A stretch of DNA of 64,000 nucleotides from Prochlorococcus sp. MIT 1223 (GTDB lineage: Bacteria; Cyanobacteriota; Cyanobacteriia; PCC-6307; Cyanobiaceae): NCBI RefSeq assembly GCF_034092465.1, contig NZ_CP139303.1, forward strand, positions 710,865-774,864, written 5' to 3'. Positions within the stretch are counted from its first letter, which is position 1. Every line of letters begins with the position of its first letter. Below, piece after piece: positions 12,838 through 38,231 of this stretch. The notes beneath the pieces are model-generated. The model saw only the letters and a program-made list of their open reading frames with translations. It made no database searches and was not told where the DNA came from. The position numbers were made by a program, and so were the translations under genes.

Positions 12838-14721
12838 ATGAGTCGATTCTTAATCCCTTCACTGCTTATACCAATATTGCCTATCAGCCCACTTATGGCT
12901 ACGCAAGGATTAGAGAAAAGTTCGGAAATCTCTAAAGATATTAATAAGGGTATTATTTCAAATAACTTTAATAAGGAATCAACAGACGAGAAAGTTAAAG
13001 AAAATTATACATTGGAATGGAAGAAGCATGAAAAAGAGAATAAGCTTCCAACGATGAGTATTCAATGGAAGCCTTCTGGTGAAAAGCAAGATTTTAAAAT
13101 CATAGAAAATCAAAATCCTAAAAAATCATTAAAAGAAAAATTTAAAATATATATAAGAAAAATAAATAAAGAATACCTTGAGGCCAAATTACTAAGACTG
13201 GGTAATGCTGTACCTACTGCCAATAGACTTAATGAAGGAGATATACAATTATCAGTTGGCCAAAAATCATCTATTTCAGATGCTGATTATGCAGGAGGTA
13301 CAGGTAATCAAAATTACATGGCAAAAATAGATCTTGGATTAAATGACGATATGATGCTTGGTTTTTTCTATGCCAATAGTGATGATCCTTTACATGCATC
13401 TCTTGATGGATATTCAGAGCATCCTGAAAACAGATGGATAATTTATGGTGCATCATTAAGTTGGCAGCAATATGAGAGTAAAAAGATACGAATTTCTCTA
13501 AATACTTCATTAGAGAACTGGAATGTTAAAAGTGGAGGATGTAACCAATATAGATGCACAAGTACTTCACCAAATATCTTTAATTCTAATACAAGTCCGG
13601 TAGAAAATAATAATATAGTAGGCTCTATATCATTACCTATCACATGGTATTTAAGTCGCAAATTCGAAATAACTTTTGCACCAAAAGGCGTATTTTTACC
13701 TGATAGTCAAGGGAATAAGAATGGAAATGGAAAATTTTATGGCAATAACTTTGGCCTTGGCTTAGGTGTTACTTATAATCCTTTGACAAGAGTTAAAATT
13801 TTTAGTTCTGCATTCTTACCAATAGGATCAAGTCAAAATAGTTTTGATAAATATTTAACTTTCAAGAAAGAGCCTATTTTTAGCGGTGGGATAAACTACT
13901 CACTAGATTCTAAAATCTCTTTTGAAGGAACTCTTACAAATGGGTTTGGACAATCTCCTGCTACAGGGATTCTCACACTTCCAAGTAGAAATCAAATACT
14001 TTATAGTGCAAGATTAATCTATAAACCTACAAATTATTCATATTCTGATGATAATTTTGATAGCAGTAATGTTGACCTGGGTGGGTTAAGTGTGTCAACA
14101 GCAAGAATTATCAATAAAAATCAAACAAGAGTACGGAATACAATAACTAGTAATAATACATGGTCAAGCAGAATTGATTGGGGCTCCTCAGAGTTCTTCA
14201 ACTTCGATATAGCTATAGCAAGAATTAATCAGAATTCAGATTCATCTAATCCATTAATAGATAAATACCATAACCCTGGTGAATTATATATTAGAGGTGG
14301 TGGAAAGATAAGTATATTTTCACAAGAAAGAGGGGATCTATTATCAACTAGTTTAAGAGTAAGTGGTGGAAGGCTAATGGGAAACGGTTGGGTCTTTGCA
14401 GAAATGTCAAATACATATTCTTTTAATACAAAAACAAGCTTAAATATTAATCCTAAAATGTCATCAAGTGGTAATGGTAATCCAGTTAGTCTTGGTAGCA
14501 GTATTATTTGGCAATTAACACCGTCTATTGCATTTATACCAGAAACTAATATTGCATTACAAGAATCTCAAAGTAACTGGACTTTTGCAATTAGATTATC
14601 ACCTACTTACAATACGTTTATTGACCTTTATACAACCAACAGCCTAAGCTTTGTGGATACAGGACAAATGCAAAAATCCGACTCTCAATCATATGGCTTT
14701 AACTTTGGTACTGTTTTTTAA
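12838..14721 (+). CDS. Predicted outer-membrane beta-barrel protein
   Basis: A 627-residue exported protein. A signal peptide is visible at 1-21 (MSRFLIPSLLIPILPISPLMA). A charged linker follows to about 115. The remainder has alternating hydrophobic and polar strands rich in N, S, G and Y, and the chain ends in an aromatic residue (FGTVF), as outer-membrane barrels do. Its position before gmd in the surface-glycan island suggests a role in anchoring or exporting surface polysaccharide, or as a surface antigen. No named family is recognised. The start ATG directly gives the signal peptide. Confidence 0.65.
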   Translation: MSRFLIPSLLIPILPISPLMATQGLEKSSEISKDINKGIISNNFNKESTDEKVKENYTLEWKKHEKENKLPTMSIQWKPSGEKQDFKIIENQNPKKSLKEKFKIYIRKINKEYLEAKLLRLGNAVPTANRLNEGDIQLSVGQKSSISDADYAGGTGNQNYMAKIDLGLNDDMMLGFFYANSDDPLHASLDGYSEHPENRWIIYGASLSWQQYESKKIRISLNTSLENWNVKSGGCNQYRCTSTSPNIFNSNTSPVENNNIVGSISLPITWYLSRKFEITFAPKGVFLPDSQGNKNGNGKFYGNNFGLGLGVTYNPLTRVKIFSSAFLPIGSSQNSFDKYLTFKKEPIFSGGINYSLDSKISFEGTLTNGFGQSPATGILTLPSRNQILYSARLIYKPTNYSYSDDNFDSSNVDLGGLSVSTARIINKNQTRVRNTITSNNTWSSRIDWGSSEFFNFDIAIARINQNSDSSNPLIDKYHNPGELYIRGGGKISIFSQERGDLLSTSLRVSGGRLMGNGWVFAEMSNTYSFNTKTSLNINPKMSSSGNGNPVSLGSSIIWQLTPSIAFIPETNIALQESQSNWTFAIRLSPTYNTFIDLYTTNSLSFVDTGQMQKSDSQSYGFNFGTVF

Positions 14722-17061: not shown

Positions 17062-18729
17062 ATGAATTATTCAGAAAATGATACTGCTATTATATGCTTT
17101 GCATATAATAGACCATATCACCTAAAGTTATGCTTAAACTCTTTATTAGAAAACGAGGAATCCAAAGACCTTCCATTTATACTCTACCTAGATGGCGTTC
17201 GTAATGCATCCGACAAAGAATATAGTGAGTCAATTGTTGGATTAATAAATAAGTTAAGTGGATTTAAAAGTATAAAATTAATTAGAAGGGAAAGGAACTA
17301 TGGTCTATATAAATCACTAACACTTGGAATTACTGAAGCTTTTAAAGAATACAACTCATTAATTATTTTAGAAGATGATATTGTCGTATGCAAAAACTTT
17401 CTGAGGTATATGATACAAGGTTTATCAATTTACGAGAAAAAAAAAGAAGTCGCCTCAATACATGGTTATTTACCTCCTATTAAAGATGAACTGCCAAGTT
17501 CATTCTTTTTAAGAGGTGCTGATTGTTGGGGTTGGGCAACATGGAAAGATAGATGGAATTCATTTAGGAGTGATTCAAATGAATTATTTAATGAAATAAA
17601 GTCAAAGAATTTAACAAAAGAGTTTAATCTTAACAATTCATATAATTACATGAGAATGTTAAAAGATAAATCAAAAGGTAGAAATAATAGTTGGGCTATT
17701 TGTTGGCATGCAAGTTGTTTCCTAAATAATCAATTGACTCTATATCCAGGTAAATCTCTAGTCAAAAATATAGGCTTAGATAATAGTGGTGAAAACTGTG
17801 GCAAATCTACAATGATGGTGACAGAATTATCGGATGATTGTATTGAGATTCATAAAATAGAAACTTGTGTCGATAAAGATATTTATAAAATCTACTGTAA
17901 TTATTTCAAGAAAAAACAATCGTTTTTATTTAGATTAACAAGAATTATCAAGGATAAGTTCTTATCTAGAATTAAAAATAATCTTGTTAAATATAAATAT
18001 TCATTTAAACGAAGAGGTTTAAGTCTTATTGGTCCATATTCAAGTTATCAAGATGCCCTTAAGAATTCTGTTGGATATGACCATCCAAAGATTATAAAAA
18101 AAGTTAGAGAATCGACTATAAAGTTACTTGAAGGGAGTGCAATATATGAGAGAGATGGTACTTCATTTTTTAGAAGACCAGAAAAGCTTAAAATTAGAAG
18201 TATTCTAAAAAAGTATGTATTAAAAAATTTTCTAATAATTGATTATGGGGGTGGCTTAGGTAGTAACTATATAAATAATAGAGATATTTTAGATTCTTCT
18301 ATTAGTTACAGTATAATAGAGCAAAGTAATTTTGCGAAAGAAGGCAAAGAGATATCTAATAAATATAATTTACCAATAAAATTCTTTAATTCTTTAGATC
18401 AAATAAAGGAGAGGCCAAATATTATGATCTTTTCTAGTGTACTAACTTATCTTGAGAGCCTTGAAGATATATTTGAATACATAAATAAGATAAAACCTGA
18501 ATATGTAATTATTGATAGAACAGCCTTCACAAATAGTAATAAGCTAAGATGGTGGGTACAAAATGAACCATTTTATTATGAAACTCCTGTCAGCTATCCA
18601 ATTAGACCTATAAATGAAAATCAACTTTTTTTAAGTCTGAAGGGTTATAATAAGATTTCCGAATGGGTTAATTCATTTGACGCAAAACAGCCATTGCATA
18701 AAGGTATTCTATATCAATTCATTGACTAG
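17062..18729 (+). CDS. Fusion of family 2 glycosyltransferase and TIGR04325-type methyltransferase
   Basis: A 555-residue two-domain protein. Residues 1-280 are a GT-A glycosyltransferase: CFAYNRPYHLKLCLNSLL near 12-29, LILEDDIVV with the metal-binding EDD near 102, and GADCWGWATWKDRW near 150. After a basic linker, residues 325-555 match the TIGR04325 putative methyltransferase group: GPYSSYQDAL near 331, IIDYGGGLGSNY near 394, and ERPNIMIFSSVLTYLE near 450. It probably transfers and then methylates, or caps, a sugar. It lies between two epimerase genes read the same way. Confidence 0.8.
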   Translation: MNYSENDTAIICFAYNRPYHLKLCLNSLLENEESKDLPFILYLDGVRNASDKEYSESIVGLINKLSGFKSIKLIRRERNYGLYKSLTLGITEAFKEYNSLIILEDDIVVCKNFLRYMIQGLSIYEKKKEVASIHGYLPPIKDELPSSFFLRGADCWGWATWKDRWNSFRSDSNELFNEIKSKNLTKEFNLNNSYNYMRMLKDKSKGRNNSWAICWHASCFLNNQLTLYPGKSLVKNIGLDNSGENCGKSTMMVTELSDDCIEIHKIETCVDKDIYKIYCNYFKKKQSFLFRLTRIIKDKFLSRIKNNLVKYKYSFKRRGLSLIGPYSSYQDALKNSVGYDHPKIIKKVRESTIKLLEGSAIYERDGTSFFRRPEKLKIRSILKKYVLKNFLIIDYGGGLGSNYINNRDILDSSISYSIIEQSNFAKEGKEISNKYNLPIKFFNSLDQIKERPNIMIFSSVLTYLESLEDIFEYINKIKPEYVIIDRTAFTNSNKLRWWVQNEPFYYETPVSYPIRPINENQLFLSLKGYNKISEWVNSFDAKQPLHKGILYQFID

Positions 18730-23746: not shown

Positions 23747-26113
23747 TTAATTCTCTATCCAATTAATAAATTTAGCAGCCTTATCTTTAAGTTTTTTTAT
23801 TAAGTCAATAATTTCTTTTCTAATTAACTGCCTTTTACTAAGCTTTTCTCTGGCTTGTATCCCTGCATCGATATTTTCATTAATCTTAGTTGGTTCATCT
23901 ATAGCATAACTTGCGTAAACCTGAGAGTAATATGAATTTGTCTCTGATTTAAGCTCAGGCTTAAGAGCATTTGTGACTACTCCTAATAATGTAGCTCCGC
24001 TAGAATATATTCTTTCTAACGAAGCAATAGGCATTGATCTATCTACATTATTAAGACTAACAAGTAGAATCATTCCATCTGTATTCGCTGCAACTAAAGC
24101 AGCATCAGCTAATCCCAGAATTGGAGGAGTATCATAAAGAACTAAATCATATTTGCCAGATTGTATTAACTCATCATTTATTTCTTTCATTCTATTAGAA
24201 CTAAGTAGTCTTGTTGGATCAGGAGGTTTTGTTCCAGCTGTAATTACAAACCAATTTTCATTGGCAGGTACTTTTTGAATTACATCTTCTAAAGAATTAT
24301 TCCTATCTATAAGTACATTACTTAAACCTTTCAAGTTATTTACACCAAGTCTATGGTGGAGTTGTGGCTTTCTCATATCTGCATCTATCAAAACAACTTT
24401 TATTCCCATCTCTGCAATTGTTTTTGAAAGTAGAGCATTAAGAAGTGATTTACCTTCCGAGGGAAGACTACTAGTTATAGCAATTGACTTTAGTTGCTTC
24501 TCACTATTTAAAAATCTTATTGAAGTGTATAAGTTACGTAAAGATTCTTGATAGAAAAATCTCTCGTATTTCTCTTTTTCTTTGTCTTCTTCAGAGTCAA
24601 GAAGATTATCTAGATCATCAAATAAAAATCTATTATCTTCGCGAACACCCTCAAAAAAAGTAACATGGGGTATATGAGCTAACAAAGGAACATCTAACTC
24701 TTCAGTTACTTCTGAAGAGTTACGATAAACATAATCTAATTTATCTCTTAAAAGAGAAGCACCTATTCCTCCAACAGCGCTAGTTAGGATACCTAACATT
24801 AAATTGATTGGAATTGATGGCTTTATAGGAGAAGATTCCATTTTCGCAGATGAAATAATCCTCCAAGGTATACTTTTTTGAGCCATCTGTAATTGATATC
24901 TATCTCTAGCAGACATTAGACTTTGTAAATTCCTTTCTGCTATTTTTAACTGTGTAGTGAGATTAGTGTAAACCTTTATATTATAAGGTTGCTCAAGAAA
25001 ATCAGTTTTATTGTTTAATCTTTGATTTTTCAACGTATCTAAATTCTTATAATTTATTTCCAAAGCTATGTCTACTGTTTTTAATTGATTCTTAATTACC
25101 AAAGGTTCTAATTTATTTAATCTAGACTTAAGTCCTTTAACAACTTCAGAGTTTTCAGTGAATTTTGTTCTCGCCGCAGCTAATTCAGACTCTGCTTTAA
25201 TTAATTGATCTAATAATCCTTTATCAAATTCTGTTACTTCAAGACCAGAATTAGAATTAAATCCTCCTAAGCTATCACCAAAACCTGATGCTGATATCGT
25301 TCTATTTATTATTTGTTTTCTAACATTTTTAAGACTGGCTATCTCTTTCTCTAAAAATAAAATGTCATCTCTAATATCACGCTCTTTTATTTTAATGGCT
25401 CTACCTTCATAAGTAGGGTCTATTACTCCATATTTTTCTCTAAATGCTTCTAACTTACTCTGAATCTCAATTGTCTTTAACCTAAGCGATGGTTCCTGAT
25501 TATTCAAAAATTTCAATCCATCGATTAAACTCTCTGTTTTCTGCTCAAGTGCTGCCTCTAAATATCTTTTGGCCAATGCTTCAAGTATTTTCTGCCCCAA
25601 TTCTCTATTATTAATCTCTAATTTAACATCTAAGACCCCCCTAGGTCTTCTTCCAGCAAATACGGAAGGATGATCTATAGATAACATTCCAGCCAAAGAA
25701 CGAGGATTAATATTGAACTCCTTAGCAACATCTGATAGATAAAATGGACTTTTAAGCAAAGAGACCAATGTTGGCACATCAGCGGAAACTCCACTGCGGG
25801 CTGCAAGTCCAAAAATTCCTTCGTCAGCCATTAGATTTTTATCTATTTCATTTCTGACAATTGGATCTTGTATCATCAAAGAGAACTGTCCAATATATAC
25901 AGGTCTAAATATTCTTAAATAGGTTGTAGTTACTCCAAAAGCTATAAAAATCGAACTTGCTGTTACATAAAAGATTTTTTTTCTACGTAATATAGCTTTC
26001 CAAATTTCTCCAAATTCTATAAAGTCTTCATTAGAAGCAAATGTTTTACGACTTAAAGCTCTTGTTGTTTCATCGCCCTGTGATAACTGATTTGACTTTG
26101 AATCTTCAAGCAT
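23747..26113 (-). CDS. Wzc-like polysaccharide co-polymerase/tyrosine autokinase
   Basis: Inner-membrane BY-kinase that controls polysaccharide chain length and export. The 788 residues begin with a cytoplasmic arm, a membrane segment near 48-70, a long periplasmic Wzz-type coiled-coil region to about 430, and a second membrane segment near 437-455. The kinase has Walker A in SSLPSEGKS near 546-554, Walker A' VVLIDADMRKP near 574, and Walker B LVLYDTPPIL near 657. A tyrosine-rich tail (YYSQVYASY near 727-735) is the likely phosphorylation cluster. Its leader carries a 15-base tandem duplication. Confidence 0.92.
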   Translation of the reverse strand: MLEDSKSNQLSQGDETTRALSRKTFASNEDFIEFGEIWKAILRRKKIFYVTASSIFIAFGVTTTYLRIFRPVYIGQFSLMIQDPIVRNEIDKNLMADEGIFGLAARSGVSADVPTLVSLLKSPFYLSDVAKEFNINPRSLAGMLSIDHPSVFAGRRPRGVLDVKLEINNRELGQKILEALAKRYLEAALEQKTESLIDGLKFLNNQEPSLRLKTIEIQSKLEAFREKYGVIDPTYEGRAIKIKERDIRDDILFLEKEIASLKNVRKQIINRTISASGFGDSLGGFNSNSGLEVTEFDKGLLDQLIKAESELAAARTKFTENSEVVKGLKSRLNKLEPLVIKNQLKTVDIALEINYKNLDTLKNQRLNNKTDFLEQPYNIKVYTNLTTQLKIAERNLQSLMSARDRYQLQMAQKSIPWRIISSAKMESSPIKPSIPINLMLGILTSAVGGIGASLLRDKLDYVYRNSSEVTEELDVPLLAHIPHVTFFEGVREDNRFLFDDLDNLLDSEEDKEKEKYERFFYQESLRNLYTSIRFLNSEKQLKSIAITSSLPSEGKSLLNALLSKTIAEMGIKVVLIDADMRKPQLHHRLGVNNLKGLSNVLIDRNNSLEDVIQKVPANENWFVITAGTKPPDPTRLLSSNRMKEINDELIQSGKYDLVLYDTPPILGLADAALVAANTDGMILLVSLNNVDRSMPIASLERIYSSGATLLGVVTNALKPELKSETNSYYSQVYASYAIDEPTKINENIDAGIQAREKLSKRQLIRKEIIDLIKKLKDKAAKFINWIEN

Positions 26114-26258: not shown

Positions 26259-27368
26259 TTGAGTGCTCGGAAACCTGTGAGCAGCCTGTTGTTGGCTATC
26301 TTCCTGCTTTCAGCTGATTTAATAGGTTTGCCTTTAATTCATTCAAAACCTGCCCAAGATAGTCAAGCTAACAATAAAGAGATTGCTTTAAAAAGAACCA
26401 ACAAAGAGCAAGGCATTAATAATAATGATTATCTAATAGGGCCTGGAGATAGCTTATATTTAACTCTTTACGGTGCAAAAGAATTCAATGGTAACTATAA
26501 TGTAATGAGAGATGGTTATGTTCGACTACCATTAATAGGCAATGTAAATCTAAACTTTAGTACAATTGATGAAGCCTCATATAAGATAAAAGAATTATAT
26601 AAATCACAATTACTAAATCCAGAGCTTCACTTAAAAGTATCTAAGACGAGGCCTCCTAGAGTAGCGATTATAGGGGAAATAAATAATCCTGGTATTTACG
26701 TATTAGGGAAAGGAGAAAGTTTTGCGAAGGTTCCTACATATTCAGGAGAACTTCCTACCCTTGTTGACGCAATTCAAGTAGCTGGTGGTATTACAGATGA
26801 AACAAATCTAACCAATGTAAAACTAATTAGAAGGTTAGCCGGAAACAAGCCTGAATACAAAGAGGCAAGCATTAACTTAATAGAGCTATTAACAGATGGA
26901 AATCATGTGCAAAATCCTCTTATTTACGATGGTGACACTATTAAATTAAGTAAAGCAAAGTATATTCCTGACATTGATAGAGATAAAGCATTAGCTAATT
27001 TATCACCTAAAACAATTGTAGTGAGCATAATTGGACAAGTTATAGCGCCAGGAAGAATAGAAATACCAAGGAATACCCCTTTATCTCAGGCCATACTCCA
27101 AACTGGCGGAGTAATCCCTATGAAGGGAAATAAAAGCAATGTTCAATTAATTAGGGTAAATAGAAATGGATCAGTTTCCAGAAAGAAATACAGGATGAAT
27201 ATAAGTAGAGGAGGATCAGAAAAATATAACCCAATACTTAAAAATGGGGACATTATTAATGTGACAACAAGTACACTAGGGAGCATTACAACAGGAGCAA
27301 ACGCAATTACTGAACCATTAAGCCCACTAGTAACTGCAATATCGGCATATAGAATATTCACAGATTAA
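26259..27368 (+). CDS. Wza-like polysaccharide export protein
   Basis: Outer-membrane or periplasmic export channel subunit of the Wza/BexD family. It has 369 residues. A hydrophobic signal segment lies at about 8-29. The export domain opens with YLIGPGDSLYLTLYG near 56, then VMRDGYVRLPLIGNV near 81. Two SLBB-type modules follow, with PPRVAIIGEINNPGIYVL near 131 and SIIGQVIAPGRIEIP near 254. There is no ATG near the start; TTG at 26259, with GAGAAG upstream, is used here, and GTG at 26277 is possible. It diverges from the kinase gene. Confidence 0.9.
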   Translation: MSARKPVSSLLLAIFLLSADLIGLPLIHSKPAQDSQANNKEIALKRTNKEQGINNNDYLIGPGDSLYLTLYGAKEFNGNYNVMRDGYVRLPLIGNVNLNFSTIDEASYKIKELYKSQLLNPELHLKVSKTRPPRVAIIGEINNPGIYVLGKGESFAKVPTYSGELPTLVDAIQVAGGITDETNLTNVKLIRRLAGNKPEYKEASINLIELLTDGNHVQNPLIYDGDTIKLSKAKYIPDIDRDKALANLSPKTIVVSIIGQVIAPGRIEIPRNTPLSQAILQTGGVIPMKGNKSNVQLIRVNRNGSVSRKKYRMNISRGGSEKYNPILKNGDIINVTTSTLGSITTGANAITEPLSPLVTAISAYRIFTD

Positions 27369-27397: not shown

Positions 27398-28138
27398 ATG
27401 AATATAGATATAATCACAGTTAACAAGAACTCTGGTTATCAATTTAAGAAAACAAAAGAAAACATCCTCTCTATTTTAGAAACTGAAAGTAGAGTCTCTT
27501 GGTTAATTATAGACTCCAAGTCTTCTGATATAAGTTCAATAATATTATCTTCTATAAGTCCCAGCAATAACATAAGAATAGTCAAAGCAGTTGATAGCGG
27601 CATATATAATGCAATGAACAAAGCCATAGAAATTACGAAATCTGATTATGCCTTATTTATAAATAGTGGTGATACTATAAATATTGACGCTTTTAGATTA
27701 GCTCTACTAAAACTAAAGATTATCAGGACAAGTCTTATTTGTGGATATAGATTAGAAAATAATAACTTACTGAATAATCTTATAAACTATTTGCAAAATT
27801 TGCTAGGTTTATCTATGCCTTCATCACACAATTCTATTATATATGAAGTTAAGGCACTGAAAAGACATAAATTCAAAGAAAGATACTTATGTGCTGCAGA
27901 TTACGAGCAGTATTTAGCGCTAAAAAAGTCAAATCATAGGTTTGTCTACTCTAAGAGATTTAAAATTACTAACATAAATGCTAATGGTTTTATCGCTAAG
28001 AATAAAATTAAAAGTTATATAGAGTATATTGATATAAATTATTTATACCAATATCATATTGTTAGCCAATATTGGCAGTACAGACTATTTATCTTAAAAT
28101 TATTGAAGAGATTCAATAGCAAGATTATTGCTCAATAA
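27398..28138 (+). CDS. Family 2 glycosyltransferase
   Basis: A 246-residue GT-A glycosyltransferase resembling WcaE/AmsE-type enzymes of extracellular polysaccharide synthesis. DIITVNKNSGYQFKKTKENI near 4-23 is the nucleotide-binding start, WLIIDSKSSD follows near 38, KAVDSGIYNAMNKAI near 65-79 carries the acidic motif, and ALFINSGDTI near 88 is typical of this branch. It starts at ATG 29 bases after the exporter, and its end overlaps the next glycosyltransferase by 11 bases. Donor and acceptor are unknown. Confidence 0.85.
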   Translation: MNIDIITVNKNSGYQFKKTKENILSILETESRVSWLIIDSKSSDISSIILSSISPSNNIRIVKAVDSGIYNAMNKAIEITKSDYALFINSGDTINIDAFRLALLKLKIIRTSLICGYRLENNNLLNNLINYLQNLLGLSMPSSHNSIIYEVKALKRHKFKERYLCAADYEQYLALKKSNHRFVYSKRFKITNINANGFIAKNKIKSYIEYIDINYLYQYHIVSQYWQYRLFILKLLKRFNSKIIAQ

Positions 28139-29252
28139 AGATTTGGAAATTCACTTCGCCTACGGAAATATAGCTGTTGACATCTGGCTAAAGCCTATAT
28201 GTCTTAGCTCGTCAGATAAGACTATGATTTATTATCAATCTTTAACACCTTGCCATACAAAAAGTAAAAATATAATTAGGATGCCAAACTGGTTCAATGT
28301 AAAGTTCTCCTACGACAGTAATATTTTACTATTTCTACCAAGTTGTATTTATTTATATCTTATCTTTATTAAGAATAGGCATAGCAAGTGTGTATTTCAT
28401 ATGACTTCTTTTTCATTACTACCGCTAACAATAGCAAAGCTAGCTGGAGTAAAAGAAAGGGTTTATTTTAATCATGGTTTTGCAAATATTGATTCTATCG
28501 GGATTGTCAAATATATACTCTATTTCATGGAGTTACTTAATATAGCGCTTTCTACAAGTGTTATCACAGTTTCACCAAAACATTTAGAATATCTAAAAGG
28601 TAATCTTCTAACAAAACTTAAACCAATAAAAGTTCCATTACCAGGTTCATGTAGTGGTATACATAAAAGCAGGTATCTCTCTTCTGCAGATTTAAATAAT
28701 AAGATTTCAAGTTTTTTAGATGAAAGTCAGCCTATAGTTTTAAGTTATATCGGTAGGCCAATTGCAAGAAAAGGATTTCCACTAATTTTAAATATTTTCG
28801 AAGAATTGCTTACAGAGATGAAGGAAAGAGAAGTGAAGCTTCAAATAATGGGAATAAATAGGCGTTTAATAGAAAAAAATATAAAAAATCAAGCTAATTT
28901 AGCCTTTATAGAATCAATTTCTTTCACATCAAATATTGATAATTATTTAATGAAATCAATTGCAATTATATTACCTAGTATGAGGGAAGGATTTGGGAGC
29001 GTGCTACTTGAAGGAGCAGCTAACGGGAATGCAATATTCACTTTTAACATTGAAGGTCCAAATTGCCTTACTAAAGATGGATATAATTCAATTATTATTC
29101 CTAAAGGCTATAATGCAAAGGAATTTGCCAAAACTATATCAAAAACACTTAGAGATAAAAATGGAACTATTAAACTTATGAAACAAGCCAGGTTGTCATC
29201 AGAGGAATTTGAGCAATCATTAATATTGAAAGAATTAAGAAAAATTTTATAA
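28128..29252 (+). CDS. GT-B (GT4-like) glycosyltransferase
   Basis: A 374-residue GT-B-fold glycosyltransferase. The C-terminal donor domain is clear: IVLSYIGRPIARKGFPLIL near 201, ILPSMREGFGSVLLEGAANG near 282-301 with the conserved E-x7-E, and TKDGYNSIIIPKG near 315. The N-terminal acceptor domain is diverged, with TIAKLAGVKERVYFNHGF near 101. The start is a TTG at 28128, overlapping the previous gene by 11 bases. It probably adds one residue of the repeat unit on the cytoplasmic face. Confidence 0.85.
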   Translation: MLNKDLEIHFAYGNIAVDIWLKPICLSSSDKTMIYYQSLTPCHTKSKNIIRMPNWFNVKFSYDSNILLFLPSCIYLYLIFIKNRHSKCVFHMTSFSLLPLTIAKLAGVKERVYFNHGFANIDSIGIVKYILYFMELLNIALSTSVITVSPKHLEYLKGNLLTKLKPIKVPLPGSCSGIHKSRYLSSADLNNKISSFLDESQPIVLSYIGRPIARKGFPLILNIFEELLTEMKEREVKLQIMGINRRLIEKNIKNQANLAFIESISFTSNIDNYLMKSIAIILPSMREGFGSVLLEGAANGNAIFTFNIEGPNCLTKDGYNSIIIPKGYNAKEFAKTISKTLRDKNGTIKLMKQARLSSEEFEQSLILKELRKIL

Positions 29253-29271: not shown

Positions 29272-29877
29272 ATGTATTGCTTATTTAAAGAATTTATTGA
29301 TAGGGTCTCAGCATCAATTTTATTTATTATTTTTATACCTATATACATATTAATTAGTTTAATCGTCTTTATAGATCTTGGAAATCCAATATTCTTCAAG
29401 CAATCAAGGCCTGGGCTTAAGGGTAAATTATTTACTCTAATTAAATTTCGAACTATGCAAAGTATAAAAAGTAAAGATGTAGATTTAATTTCAGACTCTA
29501 GTAGAACCTCAAAAGTAGGTAAATTCCTCCGAAAGACCTCTCTTGATGAACTACCTGAACTAATAAATATAATAAATGGTAAAATGAGTTTCGTTGGCCC
29601 TAGGCCACTTTTAATTGAATATTTAGATCTATACTCACCTGAACAAATGAGGCGACATAATGTAAAACCTGGACTTAGTGGTTGGGCACAAGTAAATGGA
29701 AGAAATTCAATATCGTGGGAAAAAAAATTTAAATTAGATCTATGGTATATAAAGAATCAAAGTTTCCTGTTAGATATAAAAATATTGTTTCTGACAATGA
29801 TAAGAGTTATTAGAATGGACTCAATATATTCAGATGGAGAATCAATTAATACTCACTTCAAAGGTCATTTAAATTAA
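29272..29877 (+). CDS. Monotopic phosphoglycosyl transferase, PglC-like
   Basis: Transfers a phospho-sugar from a UDP-sugar to undecaprenyl phosphate, starting assembly of a glycan. The 201-residue small form matches PglC. A single reentrant hydrophobic segment lies at about 12-35, the amphipathic block FTLIKFRTMQS is near 55, the catalytic Asp-Glu pair in TSLDELPEL near 88-96, and FVGPRPLL near 106, followed by KPGLSGWAQVNGRN near 128-141. The three next genes resemble PglD, PglE and PglF, so the likely substrate is UDP-di-N-acetylbacillosamine or a relative. Confidence 0.9.
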   Translation: MYCLFKEFIDRVSASILFIIFIPIYILISLIVFIDLGNPIFFKQSRPGLKGKLFTLIKFRTMQSIKSKDVDLISDSSRTSKVGKFLRKTSLDELPELINIINGKMSFVGPRPLLIEYLDLYSPEQMRRHNVKPGLSGWAQVNGRNSISWEKKFKLDLWYIKNQSFLLDIKILFLTMIRVIRMDSIYSDGESINTHFKGHLN

Positions 29878-29898
29878 TCTTAATTGTAAATAGAACTC

Positions 29899-30534
29899 AT
29901 GAATAGATTACTTATTATTGGAGCTGGAGGACATTCTAGAGTGATACTTGAAACAGCTCAAGCAATCGGCTGTTATTCTGATTATGCTTATCTAGATGAT
30001 AAATACACTAAGGAAATTGAATCGGAAACTATTAACGGCATTCCTATAATTGGCAAGATATCCTATTTATCTAGTGATTTTTGTAAATCTAATTATAATT
30101 CAGCAATAGTTGCAATAGGTGATTCAGCTATGAGAGTTTCTATTTTAAAAAAACTATTAAAATATTATCAAGTACCCTTTCTAATTCACCCCAATGCATA
30201 TGTTGCAGCGTCAGCCACTTTGGATAATGGTACTGTAGTTTTTGCGCAAGCTGCAGTACAATCCAATGCTGTTGTTGGAGAAGGTTGTATTATTAATACT
30301 TGTGCATCTATAGATCATGATGTTGTTTTAGCTGAAGGAGTACATATTTGTCCTGGAGCTCACTTAGCAGGCAATGTAAGAATTGGCAAATCAACTTGGG
30401 TAGGCATTGGTTCATCTATTATTCAAAATATTAATATTGGCTCAAATGTATATATTGGAGCAGGATCAGTAGTTTTAAAAGACATTAATAGTGGCTCTCG
30501 AGTGGCAGGAGTTCCTGCGCGTGCTATATCTTAG
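29899..30534 (+). CDS. Sugar O/N-acetyltransferase, PglD/NeuD-like
   Basis: A 211-residue left-handed beta-helix acyltransferase. The N-terminal Rossmann-like domain (LLIIGAGGHSRVILETAQ at 4-21) is followed by hexapeptide repeats from about 95 to 200. The catalytic His lies in INTCASIDHDVVLAE near 134-148. In the PglD family it acetylates the 4-amino group of UDP-4-amino-sugar using acetyl-CoA. The order C-D-E-F in this operon supports a bacillosamine-type role. The start ATG is 21 bases after the transferase stop. Confidence 0.88.
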   Translation: MNRLLIIGAGGHSRVILETAQAIGCYSDYAYLDDKYTKEIESETINGIPIIGKISYLSSDFCKSNYNSAIVAIGDSAMRVSILKKLLKYYQVPFLIHPNAYVAASATLDNGTVVFAQAAVQSNAVVGEGCIINTCASIDHDVVLAEGVHICPGAHLAGNVRIGKSTWVGIGSSIIQNINIGSNVYIGAGSVVLKDINSGSRVAGVPARAIS

Positions 30535-30560
30535 CCCTAAAAACATATACAATCCCTGTT

Positions 30561-31733
30561 TTGAATTTACCTTATTGGCCAGAGTTTGATAGTTCTCAAA
30601 TCAATGCCGCAGTTAAGGTTCTCAATTCTGGAAAAGTAAATAAATGGACAGGGAATGAAACAGAGAACTTTGAAAAAGAATTTGCAAGTTTCTGTGGGAC
30701 TAAATATGCAATTGCATTAGCAAATGGATCAATAGCTCTCTCAGCTGCTCTAAAAGCACTTGGGATAGGAGATGGCGATGAAGTTATCACGACTCCTAGA
30801 AGCTTCATCGCTACTGCTTCTTCAATTGTTTTAGAAGGCGCCCAACCTGTTTTCGCTGATATCGATAAAGATTCAGGTTGCATTACTGCCAATAGTATTG
30901 AACCTCTTATTAATCATGCTACAAAAGCAATTTTGGTAGTACATCTCGCAGGGTGGCCGGCAGATATGCTATCTATATGCAAATTAGCAAAAAGTAAAAA
31001 TATATTCGTAATAGAAGACTGTGCTCAAGCTCATGGAGCTGAGATAGGGTCTAAAAGTGTTGGGAGCTTTGGTGATATTTCAGCTTGGAGCTTTTGTCAG
31101 GATAAAATAATAAGTACAGCTGGAGAAGGCGGAATGATAACTACTGATAGAAGAGACCTATGGGAGAAGGTATGGTCACTAAAAGATCATGGTAAGAGTT
31201 TAAATTCATTAAAGCAAAGTAAAGCCTTAAAAACGTATGCCTATAAGTTCATGCATGAAAGCTTTGGTTATAATTTTAGGCTGACAGAATTACAAAGTGC
31301 GATTGGTAGAATACAATTAAGGATGCTATCAAAATGGAACGAAATCAGAACAAGGAACGCTTTAATTTTATTTAAGTATCTAGAATCAATTCCTAGTATA
31401 AGAATTGCCCTACCTAAAAAGGATTTAAAGCATGCTTACTACAAAGTATATGTTTATCTAGAAAAAAGATATCTTAAAGATAATTGGAATAGAGAAAGGA
31501 TAATGCATGAGATAAATAGTCAAGGATTTCCTGCCTTCTCAGGTACATGTAGTGAAATTTATCTAGAAGATTGCTTTAAAAAGAACTCTAAGTATGGTTT
31601 TCAAGTATTGCCGAACGCAAAACTACTAGGAGAGACAAGCCTAATGTTCTTAGTTCATCCAACTATAAATGAAATTCATATGAATAAATACTCAGAAATA
31701 ATTAGAAGTGTTTTACTAAATTCGATAAAATAA
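30561..31733 (+). CDS. DegT-family UDP-sugar aminotransferase, PglE-like
   Basis: A 390-residue PLP aminotransferase. AIALANGSIALSAALKAL near 49-66 binds PLP phosphate, VIEDCAQAHGAEIG near 151 carries the ring-nitrogen Asp, and SFCQDKIISTAGEGG near 178-192 holds the PLP lysine. In the PglE role it aminates the 4-keto carbon of UDP-2-acetamido-4-keto-2,4,6-trideoxyglucose made by the dehydratase encoded immediately downstream. The start is a TTG at 30561. The dehydratase gene begins one base after its stop, indicating tight coupling. Confidence 0.88.
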   Translation: MNLPYWPEFDSSQINAAVKVLNSGKVNKWTGNETENFEKEFASFCGTKYAIALANGSIALSAALKALGIGDGDEVITTPRSFIATASSIVLEGAQPVFADIDKDSGCITANSIEPLINHATKAILVVHLAGWPADMLSICKLAKSKNIFVIEDCAQAHGAEIGSKSVGSFGDISAWSFCQDKIISTAGEGGMITTDRRDLWEKVWSLKDHGKSLNSLKQSKALKTYAYKFMHESFGYNFRLTELQSAIGRIQLRMLSKWNEIRTRNALILFKYLESIPSIRIALPKKDLKHAYYKVYVYLEKRYLKDNWNRERIMHEINSQGFPAFSGTCSEIYLEDCFKKNSKYGFQVLPNAKLLGETSLMFLVHPTINEIHMNKYSEIIRSVLLNSIK

Positions 31734-31734
31734 A

Positions 31735-33621
31735 ATGATAACTAAACTCAAACAATTTCTTAATTATCTTTTGGGGCTTAAACCATCAAAGAGGAAGCTA
31801 GTATTAATTTTTGCTGACTTAGCTTCAATCCTGATCTCTATAAGGATAAGTTTTTATTTAACAGGGCTTCAGATCTCATCTTTACACGAAAAAGAAATAG
31901 CTCAAATAACTTTAGAGGCTATATTCTTAGGCATAATTCTGTATGGCTTTACAGGACAATATAATAGTATATCAAGATACCTAAGCAGTGTTATCTTCTA
32001 CAGAATTGCTGCAAGAAACTTTCTATTAACTCTTGGATTAATAATAATCAATAGTCTTTTAAATTTAAACTTATCTAATACTCGATTATGGATACTATTT
32101 TGGATATTAATAACTAGCATTACTTCTTTGACTAGAATATTTGCTAGAGATATATTGAGAATATTCCAAAATAATGATAAAGTTAATAAAAATAATATAA
32201 TAATATATGGAGCAGGAGAAGCAGGAGCTCAACTAGCCTCATCAATACAACTAACTGGTGTTTATAATATCAAAGGGTTTATAGATGATGATTTTAGATT
32301 ATGGGGTAGAGACTTATACAATGTTCGTATTAATCCGAAAAAATATCTCTCGGAAGTTGCAAGTACAATTGACGAGGTATTACTAGCTATTCCCGCAATA
32401 AACAATTATGAAAGGAAAGAAATAGTCAACTATGTTCAGAATCTGGGTATAAAGATAAGGCAAGTTCCATCAATAAAAGATCTTACAACTGGAAATGTAA
32501 GGATTAATGATTTAAGACCTATTTCCATCGAAGACCTTCTTGGAAGAGAAGCTGCGCCTCCAAATCAAGTACTACTAGAAAAAGTTATTGATGGATCAGT
32601 TATTTGTGTCACTGGTGCAGGGGGTTCAATTGGCAGTGAGATTTGCAGACAAGTATTGAAGAATAATCCTTCTAAATTAGTTTTAGTAGAACAAAGTGAA
32701 CTAGCTCTTTACACCATATATAATGAGATTAATTCTAATAATGTATCTAATGTAGAAATATTACCTCTACTTGGGAACGCTTGTGATTACTATTTTATAA
32801 ATAAGATTTTTGAGCATGAGTTTGTAGACTTAGTCTTTCATTCTGCTGCATATAAGCATGTACCATTAGTAGAAATGAATGCGATTGAAGGCTTAACAAA
32901 TAATGTACTTTCTACTGAGTCAATATGCCGAGCAGCAGAGAAAAATAAAGTCAAGCAGGTAATTCTGATCTCTACAGACAAAGCTGTTAGGCCTAAAAAT
33001 GTTATGGGCGCGAGCAAAAGAGTTGCAGAATTGATTATACAAAATTATGCTAATAAGCAATATTTAAAGAATTCAGAAGACAGAACTACATGTTACTCAA
33101 TGGTTAGGTTTGGAAATGTTCTAGGTTCCTCGGGGTCAGTTATTCCACTTTTCCAAAAACAGATTAAGGAAGGTGGACCTATCACATTAACTGATAGTGA
33201 AATGGAAAGATATTTCATGACAATTGAGGAGGCTTCTCAACTTGTTCTACAATCTTCAGCGCTAGCAGATGGTGGCGAGGTCTTTTTACTGGATATGGGG
33301 GAACCAATAAAGATAAAGTACTTAGCCGAACAAATGATTAAGTTAAGTGGTCTAACAGTGAAAGATAAAAGGAGCGGTATTGGAGATATCGAAATTATTA
33401 CAACTGGAATCAGACCTGGCGAAAAACTATATGAAGAACTATTAATTGATGGAGATGCAGAGAAAACAATCAATCCTTTAATTTATCGTGCGAAGGAATA
33501 TCCTATATCATACGAAAACTTGTCAAAAGAATTAGATTCATTATTTGAAAGCTTGAAGATTAAAGAGTACAAAGCAGCAATTAAATCTCTAGATAATCTA
33601 GTTGAAGGTTGGTCTAAGTAA
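31735..33621 (+). CDS. UDP-N-acetylglucosamine 4,6-dehydratase, membrane-anchored PglF/CapD-like
   Basis: A 628-residue membrane SDR enzyme. The N-terminal 140 residues hold four or so membrane helices, followed by a first Rossmann-like region (IIYGAGEAGAQLASSIQ near 155) and the catalytic SDR domain from about 285, with TGAGGSIGSEICRQ near 292. The active-site block reads STDKAVRPKNVMGASKR near 413-429, with Met in the Tyr position (MGASK) as in PglF-type dehydratases. It makes the 4-keto-6-deoxy sugar that starts the bacillosamine pathway. It is the last gene of the C-D-E-F group. Confidence 0.92.
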   Translation: MITKLKQFLNYLLGLKPSKRKLVLIFADLASILISIRISFYLTGLQISSLHEKEIAQITLEAIFLGIILYGFTGQYNSISRYLSSVIFYRIAARNFLLTLGLIIINSLLNLNLSNTRLWILFWILITSITSLTRIFARDILRIFQNNDKVNKNNIIIYGAGEAGAQLASSIQLTGVYNIKGFIDDDFRLWGRDLYNVRINPKKYLSEVASTIDEVLLAIPAINNYERKEIVNYVQNLGIKIRQVPSIKDLTTGNVRINDLRPISIEDLLGREAAPPNQVLLEKVIDGSVICVTGAGGSIGSEICRQVLKNNPSKLVLVEQSELALYTIYNEINSNNVSNVEILPLLGNACDYYFINKIFEHEFVDLVFHSAAYKHVPLVEMNAIEGLTNNVLSTESICRAAEKNKVKQVILISTDKAVRPKNVMGASKRVAELIIQNYANKQYLKNSEDRTTCYSMVRFGNVLGSSGSVIPLFQKQIKEGGPITLTDSEMERYFMTIEEASQLVLQSSALADGGEVFLLDMGEPIKIKYLAEQMIKLSGLTVKDKRSGIGDIEIITTGIRPGEKLYEELLIDGDAEKTINPLIYRAKEYPISYENLSKELDSLFESLKIKEYKAAIKSLDNLVEGWSK

Positions 33622-33699
33622 TACCTACTAAATTTTAATAACTCTACAAATAAACTATTTTATTTGTTAAAATACAATATAAGTAACATTAAAAGAAGA

Positions 33700-34509
33700 A
33701 TGAAATATTATAGCCTAGGAATTGATTGGGAGGATTTTGGACTTATAAGTTATGATCAAGGTAAGATAGTAGACTACAAAAGTTTTACAAATGATTTCAA
33801 AGATGAAACATTCTACTTACTAGATTTTCTAAAAGAAAATAAAGTAAAATGCACCTTTTTTATCAATGCCAGAACAGCAGAAATACATCCAAAACTAACA
33901 AAGATAATCAGCCAGTATGGACATGCTATTGGATCTCACGGTTACAAGCACGTAAGCAGACAATCGTTAACTAACAAGGAATTTCTAGACGACTCAATTT
34001 ACTCTAAAAACTTGATTGAAGATATTATTCAGAAGGAAGTCGTAGGATATCGATCACCATTACTTTCTATTTCAAGAAGTGATTATCTAGATAGTTTAAG
34101 GATTCTAAAGAAGGCAGGCTATCAGTATGATTCAAGCATAACAGTCAAATGCTTATCTAAATTACCTAATTACCCTGCAAGAGATGTAATCAAAATAATA
34201 CCTTTAACATCTGTTAAGTTTGGCTTTATCTCTCTAAACCTAGCTGGTGGTTCGACTTGGCGAATTTTACCATCTTTTCTAACCTCTTATATTCTCAAAA
34301 GTAAAATGACCTCCAATAATAGTTCCTTTTATCTTCATCCATACGAGTTTGGAAATCCAATTAATCCTTGTAGAGGAATATCTTCTAAAGCAAATATATT
34401 AAAAAAATTCGCTATATATTTAAGGTGGAATTTCAACAAAAATGCTATTGAAGAAATAATAACAGCCCTAGCCAACTCTCAAAGAGTTAGCATATCTGAA
34501 GTAAAGTGA
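33700..34509 (+). CDS. Polysaccharide deacetylase (NodB-type)
   Basis: A 269-residue carbohydrate esterase family 4-like protein. GIDWEDFG near 6-13 carries the catalytic acidic residues, CTFFINARTA near 52 is a core strand, and the metal ligands HxxxH lie in GSHGYKH near 82-88. YRSPLLSIS near 121 and FYLHPYEFGN near 207 complete the NodB motif set. It resembles the deacetylases of exopolysaccharide and exosortase clusters. The ATG at 33700 was preferred over TTG at 33664. No signal peptide is seen, so it may act in the cytoplasm. Confidence 0.85.
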   Translation: MKYYSLGIDWEDFGLISYDQGKIVDYKSFTNDFKDETFYLLDFLKENKVKCTFFINARTAEIHPKLTKIISQYGHAIGSHGYKHVSRQSLTNKEFLDDSIYSKNLIEDIIQKEVVGYRSPLLSISRSDYLDSLRILKKAGYQYDSSITVKCLSKLPNYPARDVIKIIPLTSVKFGFISLNLAGGSTWRILPSFLTSYILKSKMTSNNSSFYLHPYEFGNPINPCRGISSKANILKKFAIYLRWNFNKNAIEEIITALANSQRVSISEVK

Positions 34510-35278: not shown

Positions 35279-36448
35279 ATGATTCTTGCTACGTTTTGCA
35301 TAATTTTCCAATTTATTATTTTTAATAGATTTGGTAAGTTAAAAGCTATTGAATCTGCTCTTTTAGCGATAATTAGGACTATAGCATCTCAACAATATTC
35401 ATCTATATTTCCATATTCGGATATGGTTGATTATTACTGGCCTATTGTAAAATCATGCGGACCAACACCTATATTTCGCTATGATTCTATAGCTAGTTTT
35501 TTACATTGTAGAGGGATTATAGACTCCTTGAATGATATAAATCTTATATATGTATCAATCGGTTCTATATTTATATCATTACTACTTAAATTAAGTAATG
35601 ATATGGAGAAACGATATAACCTAATAAATAATGTCTCGGATTTACGTTTTATTAGATTAATAAAATTTTTATTTGTATTTGACCCCAACTGTATTATTTA
35701 CACCACTGTACTTGGTAAAGATATAGTCCAATTTAGCTTAGTTTCCTCTTTAATATACTTTCTAAGTACGCCAGGTGTTCGAGGTTTAAGATACCTAATT
35801 CCTTCTTTTCTTTGGATATTTTTCTCGAGACCATATTTTTTATTTTTCATAACAATTGCCATTGCTATGGCATTTGTTATTCCATCAATGAGATTAAAAG
35901 TAAGTCTTAAAGATTTGGGGAGGATTCCCCGAATTAAGGGAATTAGAAAATCCAAGGCCCTTACTGCTATAACGTTATTACCTTTTTTAGTAATGTTATT
36001 CTTCTATTCTTATCAATTTTTCGATTTTTATACAGACTTAAGTATCTTTGACATATTCGATGTTCTTGGTTCATGGAATAGAAGCATGGGAGGAGTTTTA
36101 TCTTACCCAACAGAAACACCATTCCCGATTAAATTTATTTATTTCTGGGTTTTACCTTTAGGAATAATTCAAAAAGGTTTAGGAGCTTTTGTATTCACTA
36201 TTTCCAGTCTTACTTGTTTATATTTTCTCTTTAATATATTTAAAAATATACTTAAGATTAATACTTATGCAAGTAAATTTTTATTTTCTTTGACTATCAT
36301 TTATTCTGCAGCCTTCTCATTTATTGCTAATAATTCGGGAATAACAAGTAGGTATAGGTTTACTTGTATAATGCCAATACTTTTTATTTTTACAGTATTT
36401 TCATATTTCGAACGCAGAAAAATGAAACAAGAACAACTTATGAATTAA
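35279..36448 (+). CDS. Polytopic membrane protein, candidate Wzy-type polysaccharide polymerase
   Basis: A 389-residue integral membrane protein with about nine hydrophobic segments, for example near 1-15, 90-103, 145-160, 172-200, 228-245, 284-300, 303-325 and 335-375. A periplasmic-type loop containing SMGGVLSYPTETPFP lies near 268-285. FDPNCIIYTTVLGKDIVQF near 138-156 resembles the conserved region of EpsG/Wzy-like polymerases. The topology, low conservation and operon position suit a repeat-unit polymerase. A GT-C glycosyltransferase or unrelated transporter remains possible. Confidence 0.55.
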   Translation: MILATFCIIFQFIIFNRFGKLKAIESALLAIIRTIASQQYSSIFPYSDMVDYYWPIVKSCGPTPIFRYDSIASFLHCRGIIDSLNDINLIYVSIGSIFISLLLKLSNDMEKRYNLINNVSDLRFIRLIKFLFVFDPNCIIYTTVLGKDIVQFSLVSSLIYFLSTPGVRGLRYLIPSFLWIFFSRPYFLFFITIAIAMAFVIPSMRLKVSLKDLGRIPRIKGIRKSKALTAITLLPFLVMLFFYSYQFFDFYTDLSIFDIFDVLGSWNRSMGGVLSYPTETPFPIKFIYFWVLPLGIIQKGLGAFVFTISSLTCLYFLFNIFKNILKINTYASKFLFSLTIIYSAAFSFIANNSGITSRYRFTCIMPILFIFTVFSYFERRKMKQEQLMN

Positions 36449-36479: not shown

Positions 36480-38231
36480 TCACTCTAATAACATACCACT
36501 AGAGGTTGATAAAGGTTTTGTCTTGTTGACGATAACTTGAAGACTATCTTTTAATTTTCTTAGTTTTTTGCTTTGCACAATTAATTTATAGTCATCTGTT
36601 AAGAGTATTTTGTAATTAACATTTTCACTATTTTTACTAGTTGGGAAATCAGTTCTTTGATGTGCTCCTCGACTCTCCTTCCTCGACAACGCTCCTAACA
36701 CTGTTGCCTCAGCAGACATCATGGAGGCTAGTAAATCGTAAGTTGAAATCAAATCACTGCAACCCTCACCATCTAATCTGACATCTAGATATTTCGCTTT
36801 CTCCTTTAATTCCTCAATTTTTTCTAAAGCAACTTGCAATGAATTATCTTCTCTTACTACACCACAATATTCCCACATTATTTCACCTAATTCATGTTGA
36901 AGTACTGATGAATAATATTTCCCACTTTTCATTAATTTATCAATATTTTTAGTTGCTTCTTGAATGATATGATTTGGCCTTGATACATACTCTTTATTTT
37001 GAGAATAAAGAGAAGCTGCTTTGCCAGCTCTTTTACCAAAAACTAATATCTCAGCTAAGGAATTTCCTCCTAGTCTATTTGCACCATGGAGACCTCCGGC
37101 AACCTCACCAACAGCATAGATTCCATTTATACAAGTAGAATGAGTAGTCGGCTCGACATCTATTCCTCCCATTGAATAATGAGAAGTCGGAGCAACTTCC
37201 ATTGGTGTTTCTGAGATATCAATGAATTGTTCATTGAGAAATAATCTATAAATGCGAGGTATTCTTTTAATTATATCTTCCTTATTCCTGTGTGTTATAT
37301 CTAAGAAAACTCCGCCATTCGGAGAGTTTCTTCCTGCTTTGATTTCTAAATAGTTTGCTATTGTTACTCTGTCCCTGGTAGATAGTTCCATCCTTTCCTT
37401 ATCGTAATTAATCATAAATCTTTCATTGTTACTATTTAATAATTTACCTCCTTCTCCTCTTACTGCTTCAGTAACTAATGTCCCTGCAATTTCATCAGGC
37501 TTTAATATTCCAGTAGGATGAAATTGAACCATTTCCATATCAACTAATTTACAACCCGCCTTTAAGGCAAGATAAAGGCCATCGCCAGTATTCTCTTTTT
37601 TTCGAGAGGAACTTCTTTTCCATATACCAGTATGTCCACCAGTTGCAATTACTACTGCATCTGCTAAATGAATTGATTTTTCAGCTGAATTCATATTGAA
37701 TGATATTGCTCCAAAGCATGTACCATCACTTACCAATAATTCTGTTACATATTGACTATCAACAATAGGAATATTTAGTGAATTTGCCTTATTTAATAAT
37801 GTATTTAAGATTGTTCTTCCAGTATAATCACCTGAGAAGCAGGTTCTTCTATAGGTATGGGCACCAAAAAATCTCTGGTCAAAATTACCATTATTTAATT
37901 TAGCGAAATCAGCTCCCCAGTCTTCTAACTCATTAACTAGATCCATAGACTCTTGGGCCATTATTTCGATAGATCTAGGGTCTCCTAATCCATAGCCTTC
38001 TAAAAAGGTATCCGCAAAATGTTGTTGCCATGAGTCTTCTTGATCAACATTCCCAAAAGCCGCATTAATTCCTCCCGCAGCCAAAGCAGTGTGAGCATCA
38101 ATTTTGGATCTTTTGCTTAAGACTTGAACAGATAGACCTCTTAGCTTTACCTCAATGGCTGATCTAAGTCCGGCTCCACCAGAGCCAATGACTAATACAT
38201 TATTTATTGTGGTGGTAAATTTATTTTCCAT
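36480..38231 (-). CDS. sdhA: Succinate dehydrogenase/fumarate reductase flavoprotein subunit
   Basis: A 583-residue FAD-dependent catalytic subunit that interconverts succinate and fumarate. VIGSGGAGLRSAIE near 14-27 binds FAD. The His at residue 47 in AHTALAAGGINAA is where SdhA/FrdA attach FAD covalently; aspartate oxidases lack it. Substrate-site blocks HPTG (near 249), EAVRGEGG (near 265), HYSMGG (near 354) and GANRLGGNSLAE (near 390) are intact. No iron-sulfur or membrane subunit is adjacent. It is a metabolic gene inside a glycan island and is read against its neighbours. Confidence 0.88.
   Translation of the reverse strand: MENKFTTTINNVLVIGSGGAGLRSAIEVKLRGLSVQVLSKRSKIDAHTALAAGGINAAFGNVDQEDSWQQHFADTFLEGYGLGDPRSIEIMAQESMDLVNELEDWGADFAKLNNGNFDQRFFGAHTYRRTCFSGDYTGRTILNTLLNKANSLNIPIVDSQYVTELLVSDGTCFGAISFNMNSAEKSIHLADAVVIATGGHTGIWKRSSSRKKENTGDGLYLALKAGCKLVDMEMVQFHPTGILKPDEIAGTLVTEAVRGEGGKLLNSNNERFMINYDKERMELSTRDRVTIANYLEIKAGRNSPNGGVFLDITHRNKEDIIKRIPRIYRLFLNEQFIDISETPMEVAPTSHYSMGGIDVEPTTHSTCINGIYAVGEVAGGLHGANRLGGNSLAEILVFGKRAGKAASLYSQNKEYVSRPNHIIQEATKNIDKLMKSGKYYSSVLQHELGEIMWEYCGVVREDNSLQVALEKIEELKEKAKYLDVRLDGEGCSDLISTYDLLASMMSAEATVLGALSRKESRGAHQRTDFPTSKNSENVNYKILLTDDYKLIVQSKKLRKLKDSLQVIVNKTKPLSTSSGMLLE

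Follow-up and report, generated by a model that had tools for sequence, protein, structure and literature searches.

A di-N-acetylbacillosamine-type sugar cassette in a surface polysaccharide island of Prochlorococcus sp. MIT 1223

The enzymology of cassettes for di-N-acetylbacillosamine (diNAcBac) is already well known. In Campylobacter jejuni, four reactions are divided among PglC, PglD, PglE and PglF, and they are the same four considered here. The products of Neisseria pglBCD make Und-PP-diNAcBac (PMC6959607); in that genus the phosphoglycosyl transferase (PGT) and the N-acetyltransferase (NAT) are fused as a single PglB, and the glycan is passed to pilin and other proteins. By published description, Bacillus subtilis EpsL, EpsM, EpsN and EpsC make diNAcBac and load it for exopolysaccharide, after which a GT4 enzyme adds the second sugar (PMC10653937). 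Psychrobacter cryohalolentis uses Pcryo_0612, Pcryo_0638 and Pcryo_0637, and its sugar goes into surface polysaccharide; Pcryo_0638 has been shown to aminate UDP-4-keto-6-deoxy-GlcNAc en route to 2,4-diacetamido-2,4,6-trideoxy-D-glucose (PMC8040287).

We analyzed a 64,000-nucleotide stretch (the window, C1:710865-774864) of the Prochlorococcus sp. MIT 1223 genome, whose complete sequence forms a single contig of 1,795,922 bases. Four open reading frames on the + strand, with intergenic gaps of 21, 26 and 1 bases, make up the cassette:

29272-29877, + strand: small monotopic PGT, PglC-like (201 aa; Bac_transf PF02397, E 5e-61)
29899-30534, + strand: UDP-4-amino-sugar NAT, NeuD/PglD type (211 aa; PglD_N PF17836 and Hexapep)
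30561-31733, + strand: PLP-dependent UDP-4-keto-sugar 4-aminotransferase (390 aa; DegT PF01041, E 4e-89)
31735-33621, + strand: UDP-GlcNAc 4,6-dehydratase, membrane-anchored, retaining PglF/WbpM type (628 aa; Polysacc_synt_2 PF02719, E 9e-112)

The frames, coordinates and order of these adjacent, same-direction genes are as a first-pass annotation had given them. For all four proteins, the best match among solved structures is an enzyme of UDP-diNAcBac metabolism: PglC, the acetyltransferase domain of gonococcal PglB, Psychrobacter Pcryo_0638 and PglF, respectively. The annotation's comparison with the Campylobacter PglC-D-E-F set thus stands insofar as the four enzymes are of diNAcBac type, with Campylobacter PglC and PglF the best solved matches for two of them. 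It does not stand for the aminotransferase, which belongs to the Neisseria PglC / Pcryo_0638 branch rather than with PglE. Unlike in Campylobacter, both the aminotransferase and the NAT are nearer to other branches, and the PglB oligosaccharyltransferase is absent.

Of the whole operons that we compared, gonococcal pglB-pglC-pglD matches best. Its order PGT-NAT-aminotransferase-dehydratase is the same as in the window and the identities are 46, 41, 49 and 42%, respectively, although the window splits PGT and NAT into two genes. The names pglB, pglC and pglD for the gonococcal genes are our assumption from order and family. The operon was taken from a chromosome filed in a plasmid collection; NZ_CP119142.1 and NZ_CP119140.1, "Neisseria gonorrhoeae plasmids" of ~2.17 Mb, are chromosome-sized and look misfiled.

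Our main reading, to which we give a probability of roughly two in three, is that the cassette makes UDP-diNAcBac from UDP-GlcNAc and loads it onto undecaprenyl phosphate, and that the chain is then extended and exported via Wza/Wzc-type machinery. The dehydratase would first produce a 4-keto-6-deoxy sugar with the C5 configuration retained. The aminotransferase would then install an equatorial 4-amine, and the hexapeptide acyltransferase would acetylate that amine to give UDP-2,4-diacetamido-2,4,6-trideoxy-D-glucose (UDP-diNAcBac). In a fourth step the PGT would move the sugar phosphate to undecaprenyl phosphate. Neighboring GT4 and GT2 enzymes would lengthen the chain, and the product would leave by the Wza/Wzc-type machinery as exo- or capsular polysaccharide. 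The first-pass annotation's term O-antigen is not carried over, since the glycan may be one exported by Wza/Wzc. Homology and checked active-site residues or motifs point to the first three steps; the donor in the fourth and the final polymer we infer. The core assignment as a diNAcBac cassette is likely right, and B. subtilis exopolysaccharide is the closest parallel to the scheme as a whole.

Among solved structures, the dehydratase sequence matches PglF best (5bju, 264 bits, against 128 bits for the inverting PseB/FlaA1). Its active site carries an STDKA..M..K motif of PglF type, ISTDKAVRPKNVMGASK. The active-site Met occurs in 65 of 65 cassette dehydratases, so the STDK-Met-Lys motif is not specific by itself. 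The first-pass annotation had left room for a UDP-GlcNAc dehydratase with inverting activity, and the scores against solved structures place the enzyme instead with the retaining PglF type. It falls below the NCBIfam cut-offs for PseB and FnlA (PseB 168 bits, cut-off 408), and an inverting PseB-type enzyme was rejected, as the window protein fails TIGR03589 and the genome's true PseB passes. The latter (505 bits, above cut-off) lies in a separate glycan island and is followed by a 689-aa protein, the pair spanning C1:642588-645657. The second protein is apparently a fusion: its N-terminal half is RmlD-like, and the other half scores above cut-off for PseC. The sugar enzymes had also been described as three soluble proteins, which needs correction for the dehydratase, since four membrane helices are predicted at its N-terminus.

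For the aminotransferase, the best structure is Pcryo_0638 (7l7x; 402 bits, 50.4% identity), and all ten checked ligand or PLP contact residues of that enzyme are kept (W9, P10, D156, Q159, Q183, K185, K215, Y229, F335 and G337). Gonococcal PglC follows with 49% identity and 389 bits. The match to structure entry 1o61, which we take to be Campylobacter PglE, reaches only 85 bits, so a PglE label suits the reaction and not the branch. The NAT scores 205.8 bits with TIGR03570 (NeuD/PglB/VioB; cut-off 160.8) and has the DHD motif that carries the expected catalytic His. It shares 41% identity with the acetyltransferase portion of gonococcal PglB, in agreement with its best match among solved structures, 4m98 (158 bits, annotated as a pilin glycosylation protein); PglD scores only 79 bits. 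The P. cryohalolentis acetyltransferase is of another subgroup, with 46 bits to the window NAT.

These scores bear on the stereochemistry at C4. The product could instead be the D-galacto epimer, FucNAc4NAc, whose 4-amine is axial; this is the sugar of the pathway known from Shigella sonnei / Plesiomonas. The FucNAc4N pathway uses the same dehydratase chemistry and the same protein families as the cassette, and PGTs for UDP-FucNAc4N are known (WcfS, PMC12550135). However, the cassette includes an acetyltransferase, which would be superfluous in a free-amine FucNAc4N pathway. The aminotransferase, moreover, shares 49-50% identity with two enzymes whose role in diNAcBac synthesis is proven or assigned (389-402 bits), and only 31.8% over 70% of its length with an S. 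sonnei plasmid enzyme (142 bits on the hit line), which is presumably the FucNAc4N aminotransferase. On these identities the D-gluco sugar is favored, and we regard the galacto epimer as highly improbable.

The weakest link in this reading is the PGT. Its best structure is C. concisus PglC (8g1n; 198 bits, 44% identity), and the monotopic core is kept, with DX12P, the catalytic DE dyad and PRP. In enzymes of this type, the use of UDP-diNAcBac has been tied to two features, GLLP within the mobile loop and an aromatic box that includes a C-terminal Phe (PMC10942596), and we took the loop criterion from that work. The window PGT reads VDLIS where GELLP is expected, whereas gonococcal PglB retains GIPLP. 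EpsL is 58-59% identical to Campylobacter PglC, and the authors of that comparison credit it with the diNAcBac fingerprint (PMC10653937); the window PGT lacks GLLP. Among cassette PGTs, 50 of 63 have a GxxLP loop. The enzyme thus resembles PglC by core and position, yet its sequence would not place it in the fingerprint-defined diNAcBac group. Two picocyanobacteria have the cassette PGT inside longer open reading frames of 628 aa (L024:5444-7330) and 630 aa (L117:6354-8246), where it may be fused to another domain.

Could UDP-diNAcBac be made while the PGT uses a different sugar for initiation, diNAcBac being added later in the repeat unit by a glycosyltransferase? The missing GLLP specificity motif would fit, as would the several further nucleotide-sugar enzymes coded in the surrounding island. 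Yet the PGT gene sits between the cassette GT4 and the NAT, as in many diNAcBac-type operons, and the protein keeps its C-terminal Phe (THFKG), the NxISWEKKF region and the surrounding aromatic residues. Cassette PGTs of Prochlorococcus relatives also show partial loss of the motif (NLFS, NLLE, NNLLP), which argues in the same direction, and we consider a different initiating sugar unlikely. The other PGT of the genome passes a galactose-transferase family model.

With diNAcBac initiation retained as the preferred reading, the next issue is where the product goes. The cassette-bearing region, of ~30-33% G+C, is a surface polysaccharide island of ~34 kb, flanked on both sides by housekeeping genes (serS, pnp and others before ~8.6 kb; lexA, argF and ftsH after ~42.4 kb). 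The island codes for GDP-mannose 4,6-dehydratase, UDP-glucose dehydrogenase, several epimerase/dehydratase proteins, a second DegT aminotransferase, a nucleotidyltransferase, glycosyltransferases, and Wza- and Wzc-like export proteins. The genes nearest the cassette are:

23747-26113, - strand: Wzc-like polysaccharide co-polymerase / tyrosine autokinase (TIGR01007 above cut-off; Wzc 157 bits)
26259-27368, + strand: polysaccharide export outer-membrane protein, Wza-like (PF02563, SLBB domains)
27398-28138, + strand: GT2 glycosyltransferase, WcaE-like (PF00535; TIGR04009 68.6 bits, below cut-off)
28128-29252, + strand: GT4 glycosyltransferase immediately 5' of the cassette (PF00534)
33664-34509, + strand: polysaccharide deacetylase-like protein (PF01522, DUF3473)
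35279-36448, + strand: polytopic protein (at least 5 hydrophobic segments)

By analogy of position with EpsD/PglA-type enzymes, which it would match in function, the GT4 is a candidate for adding the second sugar. The polytopic protein has no Pfam family match, even at E 5, and naming it as a candidate Wzy polymerase is a guess.

Transfer of the lipid-linked glycan to proteins, by O- or N-glycosylation, would accord with the close kinship to Neisseria O-glycosylation genes and with the one Wzy_C/PglL-family protein coded elsewhere (C1:1201679). However, a search for STT3/PglB (PF02516) through the complete 1.8 Mb genome found none, which extends to the whole chromosome the first-pass annotation's observation that the window lacks a PglB-type oligosaccharyltransferase and led us to reject Campylobacter-type N-glycosylation by STT3. 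The C1:1201679 protein, the genome's sole Wzy_C-family member, occurs in nearly every member of the family that we examined, and most of these lack the cassette, which gives no sign of a protein ligase dedicated to it; nor was a PglL-specific domain found in the protein. Wza and Wzc genes adjoin the cassette. The earlier preference for polysaccharide initiation over N-glycosylation holds, because the genome is without STT3/PglB, and protein glycosylation in general seems to us very unlikely.

Export to a surface polysaccharide, the preferred route, calls for a flippase. No PF01943 or PF13440 match to a Wzx flippase was obtained in the genome, despite its two PGTs and its Wza and Wzc genes. Only 25 of 60 relatives searched have a PF01943 match, so the model may miss divergent Wzx proteins. 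Such a Wzx could serve as the flippase here, or an ABC exporter could. In the PseB/PseC island, C1:637303-639099 encodes a 598-aa ABC exporter with full-length alignment to the PglK (217 bits) and HepA models, below their cut-offs. It is a candidate lipid-linked oligosaccharide flippase by sequence, and a tie to the cassette is only a suggestion. The proposed pathway is weakened by the lost GxxLP loop motif of the PGT, by the undetected Wzx and by a Wzy candidate that is a guess. A variant that takes up the first two points is that the PGT has changed donor specificity through its eroded loop, accepting either a related but different UDP-4-amido sugar or more than one donor, and that its product enters a polysaccharide pathway in which flipping depends on something other than Wzx, for instance an ABC transporter resembling PglK; this we judge distinctly unlikely.

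The cassette is ordinary in many bacteria and common in Proteobacteria, and it is patchy in picocyanobacteria. In 48 of 93 aminotransferase-bearing loci, PGT, NAT and aminotransferase lie on one strand with PGT and NAT upstream, and 29 of the 93, mostly from Proteobacteria, have the full four-gene order; with such frequencies, the arrangement is not due to chance. Some loci scored as NAT-negative carry another type of acetyltransferase at that place, like that of Acinetobacter. Several Synechococcus-like genomes (loci L116, L117 and L118) have the identical four-gene order. The cassette aminotransferase was found in 5 of 149 relatives, the window's own genome included, and in 9 of 386 genomes sampled across the phylum, seven of the nine in the same family as the window.

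Among named organisms, Prochlorococcus single cells and Synechococcus UW140 have the aminotransferases closest to that of the window, consistent with the marine picocyanobacterial host named in the first-pass annotation. In a quick tree, for which composition bias was flagged, the 15 aminotransferases from picocyanobacteria fall together in a single clade (SH-aLRT 99), and within the same tree the window protein groups with Prochlorococcus (support 98). Judged by the aminotransferase, the cassette looks like an old, patchily retained part of the picocyanobacterial gene pool. Recent transfer from Proteobacteria is unsupported for this gene, given the single clade of 15 sequences. A viral origin was also set aside, as the viral matches are remote (at most 37%).

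If the pathway runs as proposed, a surface polysaccharide of Prochlorococcus should have a rare diamino sugar at its reducing end. Our literature search returned no report of bacillosamine in marine picocyanobacteria; most subscription journals were out of reach, and we claim no priority. Surface glycans encoded in replacement islands are thought to be targets of phage recognition (PMC4033161), which makes the patchy cassette a candidate determinant of phage sensitivity.

Several other genes of the island stand out. At its start, 10203-11747 (+ strand) encodes a protein of 514 aa for which a search relaxed to E 5 gave no family. The 627-aa product of 12838-14721 (+ strand) has no Pfam or NCBIfam match; its N-terminus is hydrophobic and its last residue is Phe, so it may be an outer-membrane barrel. 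A gene resembling those for succinate dehydrogenase / fumarate reductase flavoproteins (36480-38231, - strand) stands alone inside the island, with 527 bits to the TfrA model, below cut-off, and no obvious SdhB adjoining. A single open reading frame at 17062-18729 (+ strand) combines a GT2 domain with a methyltransferase domain that scores above the TIGR04325 cut-off (137.5 bits).
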